Shown here in pieces: positions 14,461 to 21,656 of a DNA stretch of 34,680 nucleotides (positions within the stretch are counted from its first letter, which is position 1; each line of letters starts with the position of its first letter). The DNA lies in contig CAMJXZ010000002.1 in assembly GCA_946409855.1 (NCBI GenBank), forward strand, positions 1-34,680. Direction: 5' to 3'. Under the pieces are notes generated by a model. The model did no database searches and had not been told where the DNA came from. It saw only the letters and a program-made list of their open reading frames with translations. The translations under genes were made by a program, and so were the position numbers. This DNA is from an uncultured Clostridia bacterium. Lineage in GTDB: Bacteria > Bacillota > Clostridia > Christensenellales > Aristaeellaceae.

Positions 14461-14700
14461 ATGATGAATACGAAAACAGCGGAACTGAGTCTGAATCAAA
14501 TGGAAATGGTGAACGGCGGCGCGGATCCGATCCAGACCGCGGCGGCGGCCGGCGCCGGCGGCATCGTCGGGGGAGCGTCGGGCGGAGTGCTCGGGATTTG
14601 CCTCGGCCTGGCGACCGGTCCGATCGGCTGGATGGCCCTCGGCGGAGCGATCATCGGCGGCGCCGCGTACGCCACCTACTACACGCTGACATCAAAATAA
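14461..14700 (+). CDS. Small glycine-rich peptide with double-glycine leader, class II (two-peptide-like) bacteriocin candidate
   Basis: MMNTKTAELSLNQMEMVNGG|ADPIQTAAAAGAGGIVGGASGGVLGICLGLATGPIGWMALGGAIIGGAAYATYYTLTSK; multiple GxxxG motifs, hydrophobic core. Confidence 0.78.
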   Translation: MMNTKTAELSLNQMEMVNGGADPIQTAAAAGAGGIVGGASGGVLGICLGLATGPIGWMALGGAIIGGAAYATYYTLTSK

Positions 14701-14721
14701 AAGATACTGTCTTATATAAGT

Positions 14722-14759
14722 AAGGGGATGCTGCAGGCTTCATTCTGCAGCATCCCCTT
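14722..14759 (+). terminator. Strong hairpin after the peptide pair (terminator candidate; poor T-tract)
   Basis: AAGGGGATGCTGCAG gcttcatt CTGCAGCATCCCCTT, perfect 15-bp stem. Confidence 0.6.
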
Positions 14760-14769
14760 CCGCATTATG

Positions 14770-14930
14770 TTGCTCCACCAATGAATTCATGAAGCCGGAT
14801 GCTGGGGCAGAAGGGGTGAGAGACACGGAATGAAAGCGCAGGCGTACCCGTAGGCACATAAAGCTTTCATGACGCAGTATATCGCCCCATATGACGCTGC
14901 GGATGCTTCACGAATCTGTTGAGGGAACAA
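14770..14930. repeat. 161-nt palindromic intergenic repeat, copy 1
   Basis: TTGCTCCACCAATGAAT...GAATCTGTTGAGGGAACAA; same length as copy 2 at 21371-21531, about 16 mismatches by eye; whole element is an imperfect inverted repeat. Confidence 0.9.
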
Positions 14931-15005
14931 TAAATGAAAGAACATTGTCGGCAAATCAGGATGCATCCGGTTCCGTTCAGTCAGAGAGATATTTCTGAAT
15001 ACCGG

Positions 15006-21140: not shown

Positions 21141-21370
21141 GTCCTTTGACAAAAAAGTTGATTCTGCCGTGTATGATCTGCTGTTCACGTCTCTCCCTGC
21201 CGGATAAGCGGTTTTTGCAGGATACAGGCGAACCGGATTCATCCGCGGTCCCCCGGCAGGCATAGGAGCGTCTGCCCGTCTGGTCCGCCGGCTTCCCCGT
21301 CAGCGTGATGGCCTTCCGGTCTGTGATGTCCATACTGCTTACGACCGGCATGAGCGCCTGAAAAGTGATA

Positions 21371-21531
21371 TTGCTCCACCAATGAATGCTTGAAGCTGGA
21401 TGCTGCGGCAGAAGGGGTGAGAGACAAGGAATGAAAGCGCAGGCGTACCCGTAGGTACGGCAAGCTTTCATGACGCAGTATATCGCCCCTTATGACGCTG
21501 CAGATGTTTCAAGAATTTGTTGGGGGAGCAA
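21371..21531. repeat. 161-nt palindromic intergenic repeat, copy 2
   Basis: TTGCTCCACCAATGAATGCTTGAAGC...GAATTTGTTGGGGGAGCAA; core GAATGAAAGCgcaggCGTACCCGTAGGTACGgcaaGCTTTCATGAC is palindromic; same length as copy 1. Confidence 0.92.
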
Positions 21532-21627
21532 TAATACAGCTGCGGCACGGTGGATCCGAGGAGAAAGCGATTGGGGCACAGGACTGTCCGCCCGGATCCA
21601 GGGATTGGTATGCATTCATTGATTCAT

Positions 21628-21656
21628 TTGACAAACAAACGAAACCGTTTTATGAT
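21628..21656 (+). promoter_or_regulatory. Sigma-A-type promoter of ROK regulator
   Basis: TTGACA (21628-21633) - 17 nt - TATGAT (21651-21656). Confidence 0.65.

Follow-up and report, generated by a model that had tools for sequence, protein, structure and literature searches.

Two intergenic repeats of 161 nt lie within the 34,680-nt stretch of an uncultured Clostridia bacterium that was analyzed here (hereafter, the window), and they raise the question of whether such a sequence is a mobile DNA element or a structured nucleic acid maintained for its fold. A sequence-only reading had offered the two as alternatives, a MITE-like element or a family of long-hairpin RNAs. We find that they are not exclusive: mobility is shown, and so is selection on the hairpin of one strand, whereas it remains undecided whether the selected molecule is RNA or single-stranded DNA. 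The center of the element also proves to be common far outside this genome, including in the Correia repeats of Neisseria, which goes beyond anything the sequence-only reading had proposed.

Results

The Two Copies and Their Surroundings

The segments at 14770–14930 and 21371–21531 (copies 1 and 2; Table 1) are both 161 nt long and identical at 145 of 161 positions with no indels, so the similarity claimed by the sequence-only reading held exactly. Its description of each repeat as one large imperfect inverted repeat held as well, the end sequences that it quoted being those of copy 2; each copy is a single long imperfect palindrome. The predicted fold of copy 2 has an energy of −83.3 kcal/mol (z −9.3 relative to dinucleotide shuffles) and that of copy 1 an energy of −58.7 kcal/mol (z −3.7). 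The 20-mers flanking the two copies agree at 4–9 of 20 positions, which is chance level, and because the flanks are unrelated the copies do not represent a segmental duplication. The finding that would have refuted a mobile or RNA family, namely only two copies within a segmental duplication, was thus checked and not borne out: the repeat is multi-copy and its flanks are unrelated.

A small Gly/Ala-rich open reading frame of 79 amino acids without a Pfam match (14461–14700) lies upstream of copy 1 and is followed by a terminator-like hairpin (14716–14765) that stops approximately 5 bp before the copy. Copy 2 is flanked on two sides by divergent promoter-like sites; the predicted promoter of the ROK gene is located about 100 bp downstream, and copy 2 is therefore probably outside the ROK transcript. 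A terminator-like site was looked for inside the element, and none was detected. From the promoter-like sites and the terminator-like hairpin we infer that both window copies are likely to fall outside host transcripts.

Table 1. Features of the Two Repeat Copies and Their Immediate Surroundings in the Window
Feature	Position	Strand	Evidence
Terminator-like perfect hairpin GGGGATGCTGCAG/CTGCAGCATCCCC, separate from copy 1; probably terminates the small gene upstream	14716..14765	+	Fold −30.5 kcal/mol
TG left of copy 1, probably derived by mutation from a TA target duplication	14768..14769		Sequence
Copy 1, family A element (older, partly decayed)	14770..14930	+	145/161 identity to copy 2; model R3 48.2 bits, E 4.2e-12
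Conserved core with two internal loops, copy 1	14810..14890	+	R3 match on + strand
TA right of copy 1	14931..14932		Sequence
TA left of copy 2, target duplication	21369..21370		Sequence; TA rule from interrupted genes
Copy 2, family A element (recent)	21371..21531	+	160/161 and 158/161 identity to C11 and C125 copies
Conserved core, copy 2: CAAGG...GCAGG-CGTACC-CGTA-GGTACG-GCAAG...TGACGCAG	21411..21491	+	R1 (family A left out of training) 59.9 bits, E 1.4e-17; R3 76.1 bits
TA right of copy 2, target duplication	21532..21533		Sequence
Sigma-70-like promoter of the ROK gene, TTGACA-17-TATGAT	21628..21656	+	11/12 consensus match

Family A Is Mobile

The genome to which the window belongs (G000; 3.1 Mb in a fragmented assembly) contains many further copies of this repeat, which we designate family A. 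The copies on contigs C11 and C125 are nearly identical to copy 2 (Table 1), indicating that the family moved recently; others, on C26 and C65, are decayed. Truncated copies are found at the ends of contigs C10, C96, C215, and C351, where the assembly broke, which points to additional repeats that the assembler failed to span. Family A is present in all eight genomes of the genus (G000 and 7 of 7 congeners searched, whose records include rumen or deer-forestomach Clostridia and "Christensenella sp. UBA4379"), and at the DNA level in none of 32 more distant relatives; the genomes searched were mostly metagenome-assembled genomes (MAGs).

The element comprises 161 bp running from TTGCTCC to GGAGCAA and duplicates TA, a dinucleotide found on at least one side of almost every copy. 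One copy (L033, on G001:C59) interrupts an AraC-family gene, and deletion in silico of 161 bp plus one TA yields an uninterrupted HTH_18/HTH_AraC domain over the junction (HTH_18, 7.8e-18); another (L026) interrupts a long membrane-protein-like open reading frame that is restored in the same way. Restoration of reading frames by removal of exactly 161 bp and one TA indicates insertion at TA with a 2-bp duplication. Of the checks that the sequence-only reading had proposed, the one for a target-site duplication is accordingly answered by TA, backed by two restored frames, and the one for an empty site is not, since the region upstream of the ROK gene in G007 lacks the element but cannot be aligned over the copy 2 junction. 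Near-identical copies at unrelated sites, together with exact TA duplications within interrupted genes, establish that family A is mobile. It fulfills criteria for a MITE in being multi-copy and shorter than 500 bp and in having terminal inverted repeats, a target-site duplication, and no transposase gene; that of an autonomous insertion sequence with matching ends was not fulfilled in the genomes searched (see below). Mini elements of roughly 42–64 bp that consist of family A ends alone, with TA-like flanks, were also observed (L154, L155, L156, and L157).

Sister Families with a Common Core

Via a short match, the genus was found to harbor three further families, B, C, and D. They have the ends TACTGATTTTC, TACTAATATCTGG, and TACTAATCTCAGG, respectively, and are usually 159 bp long. 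A 3-bp TNA duplication (TTA, TCA, TGA, or TAA, equal on both sides) borders 30 of the 38 rows in a list that was compiled automatically and includes a few spurious rows. Their arms are unrelated to those of family A. Only the middle is common to all four families, a core of about 80 nt with two internal loops that runs from CAAGG through a stem to CGAAAGCGTACC, over a 4-nt loop to GGTACGGTGAGG, and through a stem to ACGC. In some family B copies (L141–L143 and L145–L149) from G003 and G000, longer structured inserts, of two types unrelated to each other, take the place of the apical loop, as though the tip of the core hairpin were exchangeable.

The Core Beyond the Genus

An exact pattern, GAAAGCGTACC-(3-5)-GGTACGGTGAG, scanned over species genomes, matched in the genus itself, in a termite-gut clostridial MAG, and in several soil betaproteobacterial MAGs, every match being embedded in a long palindrome whose arms differed. 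A BLAST search of a betaproteobacterial element against plasmids added one true core, on a plasmid of Embleya (Actinomycetota); the other plasmid matches were mainly coding noise. A covariance model (R1) was built from the elements found by scan and BLAST, with family A left out. Because the seed was the exact pattern, some of the conservation in R1 is built in, and the E-values of all such models are rough. R1 recognizes copies of the window family at 56–69 bits (E 1e-16 to 1e-20) and is positive in 10 of 300 Bacillota genomes, among them new long-hairpin families; one match (L242), a plain perfect palindrome, was rejected as false. With the further models R2 and R3, the core was detected in 81 of 399 Pseudomonadota genomes and 37 of 399 Bacillota genomes, respectively, and R3 also detected it in several other genera of the window organism's family and order. 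Its consensus is CAAGGcg...cG[CA]AG-stem-[CT][AG]AG...[CA or TG]ACGC.G, and what is conserved between families is the center, not the ends. Covariance models show this core in many Bacillota and Pseudomonadota and in Neisseria Correia repeats (see below), within elements whose arms and ends are unrelated, and BLAST places it on at least one actinomycetotal plasmid.

The core was not found in phage and viral collections, nor did the literature searched contain anything relevant to its sequence motifs. Rfam 15 gave no match at gathering threshold in the window, and related elements had only chance-level matches up to E 10. Loci in proteobacterial genomes (L269, L272, and L275) carry two inverted cores about 25 nt apart, a paired arrangement resembling that of REP sequences. 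Genomes G022 and G008, of other genera in the same family, have 31 and 12 core copies, many of them about 20 nt from contig ends, which suggests very high copy number and a broken assembly. In two proteobacterial genomes, core elements (L278 and L279) adjoin what seems to be the same gene end and differ by compensated stem changes, and they were possibly retained in place.

Relation to Correia and Other Known Repeats

Correia elements have been under study since 1988. According to PMC2649163, the repeat is known from Neisseria only and its mobilizer is undetermined. Against R2, whose training had included no Neisseria sequence, a real Neisseria Correia copy scored 36 bits (E 3.6e-10, 345 bp searched), and the match extended along the whole model. 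The part of the Correia element (CREE/NEMIS) that matches is CAAGGCG...GCAG..GTAC..GTACGGCAAG...GCAACGC. Correia and window elements are also alike in having a TA target, inverted-repeat ends, no genes, and a long RNA hairpin. The ends differ, being TATAGTGGATTAAC in Correia and the unrelated TATTGCTCC in the window elements, from which the ends of Correia sensu stricto (TATAGTGGATTAA) are absent. Because elements with unrelated arms, Correia among them, have this core in common, we place the window element in a Correia-like superfamily that is apparently undescribed, and of which it forms a new branch.

Other known repeats resemble the window element less closely. ERIC/IRU of enterobacteria is likewise a long imperfect palindrome with a TA target, intergenic, and without a known transposase; an Escherichia coli copy (L203:101–227) has a similar fold and, by eye, comparably placed motifs (ACAAG/AACGC and GAA/TGAG). 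ERIC was rejected as a member of the superfamily, since neither R1, R2, nor R3 recognizes it (best score 8.5 bits, not significant), and the likeness could possibly reflect either distant kinship or convergence, which we cannot decide. RUP of Streptococcus pneumoniae is also small, non-autonomous, and TA-targeting (PMC2229807), but IS630-Spn1 has been proposed as its mobilizer. BRE is a short repeat found across many betaproteobacteria (PMC3110155) but consists of tandem units of about 90 bp.

Selection on One Strand

In the family A alignment, 95.7% of cells are paired, compared with 89.6% in shuffles, and double-sided changes number 68, compared with 25 ± 3 after shuffling (0 of 500 shuffles as high) and at most 6 when the partners are slid. 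Some of the changes convert C-G to G-U or G-C to U-G and so preserve pairing on one strand only. The + strand of family A folds better than its complement in 19 of 20 copies, by about 25 kcal/mol, as it does in 28 of 28 elements of families B–D and 26 of 26 proteobacterial elements, the last set being partly biased because the strand was picked by a model. Over a strand-neutral set of pairs, G-U outnumbers A-C by 108:36 in family A (3:1) and by 139:31 in families B–D (4.5:1). Covariation and strand polarity together show that the hairpin of the + strand is under selection. What selection acts on is a single strand, because neither a cruciform nor a symmetric palindrome of DNA would give such polarity.

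Whether that strand is RNA or single-stranded DNA is undecided, because the polarity persists under DNA energy parameters and a replication-strand bias was seen in one genome only: in G007, 13 of 14 copies are carried by the strand opposite to the G-rich strand, a skew not reproduced in G776 (8:4), G787 (6:4), or G817 (1:3). Orientation relative to neighboring genes is without bias (8:12 and 15:18); this, with the probable location of both window copies outside host transcripts, argues against a role in host mRNA alone. Our inference is that the fold serves the element itself, in its propagation or its processing; transcription was not tested.

The Search for a Mobilizer

The absence of an accompanying transposase, noted by the sequence-only reading, held, and a search for the same ends elsewhere likewise revealed no partner. 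Pairs of ends 1–3 kb apart, as expected of a transposase-bearing relative, were found neither in the genus, where the MAG genomes are incomplete, nor in three betaproteobacterial MAGs (searched with a more degenerate pattern). Two complete genomes had no such pairs either, and in one of them there are more than 20 end matches of its own family. As no end pairs were found, a DDE transposase acting on the element ends is inferred only. Such an enzyme, working in trans, would be the simplest source of the 2- and 3-bp duplications, but it has not been identified.

Discussion

The reading that best joins these results, and that we consider likely, is one of non-autonomous elements that target TA or TNA and in which a structured single strand is selected during the element's own propagation. 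In this hypothesis, inferred from the duplications, a transposase supplied in trans and cutting at TA (2-bp duplication) or TNA (3-bp duplication) would move the element DNA, and the folded single strand, either the element's own RNA or exposed single-stranded DNA, would be recognized via the core in propagation or processing. By analogy with the Correia elements, for whose RNA processing by RNase III is reported (PMC2649163), the same processing would be a plausible fate of any transcript of the element. A bolder reading, for and against which we find the case evenly balanced, is that the core of about 80 nt is a pan-bacterial structured RNA or single-stranded DNA module defining an unrecognized class of mobile elements, of which Correia is one branch, and that a common unidentified factor recognizes it and lets elements with unrelated ends and differing target duplications spread.

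Among alternative explanations, it remains possible that the element moves as single-stranded DNA that is folded and recognized through its core, on the pattern of IS200/IS605 or attC systems. It is supported by the polarity under DNA parameters, by the lack of a transposase-bearing partner with the same ends, and by the strand skew in G007; against it are the absence of that skew elsewhere and the presence of 2- and 3-bp target duplications in these elements. IS200/IS605 enzymes are not known to make such duplications.

It is unlikely that the elements are ordinary MITEs, that is, internally deleted insertion sequences whose arms are only long terminal repeats and whose folding merely follows from the palindromic DNA. 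The TA/TNA duplications, the terminal inverted repeats, and the end-only mini forms of about 42–64 bp favor this explanation, yet a DNA palindrome is strand-symmetric and the elements are strongly polarized, their interior pairs covary, and conservation between families lies in the center and not at the ends.

We likewise doubt that they are host-beneficial, cis-acting RNA hairpins (mRNA stabilizers, RNase III sites, or terminators) that spread by regulating their neighbors. RNase III and regulatory roles have been reported for Correia elements (PMC2649163, PMC10969869), and the structure is selected on one strand, but the elements favor no orientation relative to the genes on either side, divergent promoter-like sites enclose copy 2, a terminator-like hairpin immediately precedes copy 1, and the element has no detected terminator-like site. 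Least credible is SINE-like spread, in which an RNA copy is used by a trans-acting reverse transcriptase that recognizes the core; the RNA-like polarity and the retention of the core over unrelated arms would suit it, but precise inverted-repeat ends and constant 2- and 3-bp duplications fit a cut-and-insert enzyme better.

The shared core places Correia in a superfamily found in roughly one-fifth of the sampled Pseudomonadota genomes and one-tenth of the sampled Bacillota genomes. The superfamily opens up numerous further systems in which the shared factor might be found, among them complete genomes whose copies are nearly identical. It also raises the testable question of why a DNA element preserves a folded core specific to one strand when its arms and ends are free to change.
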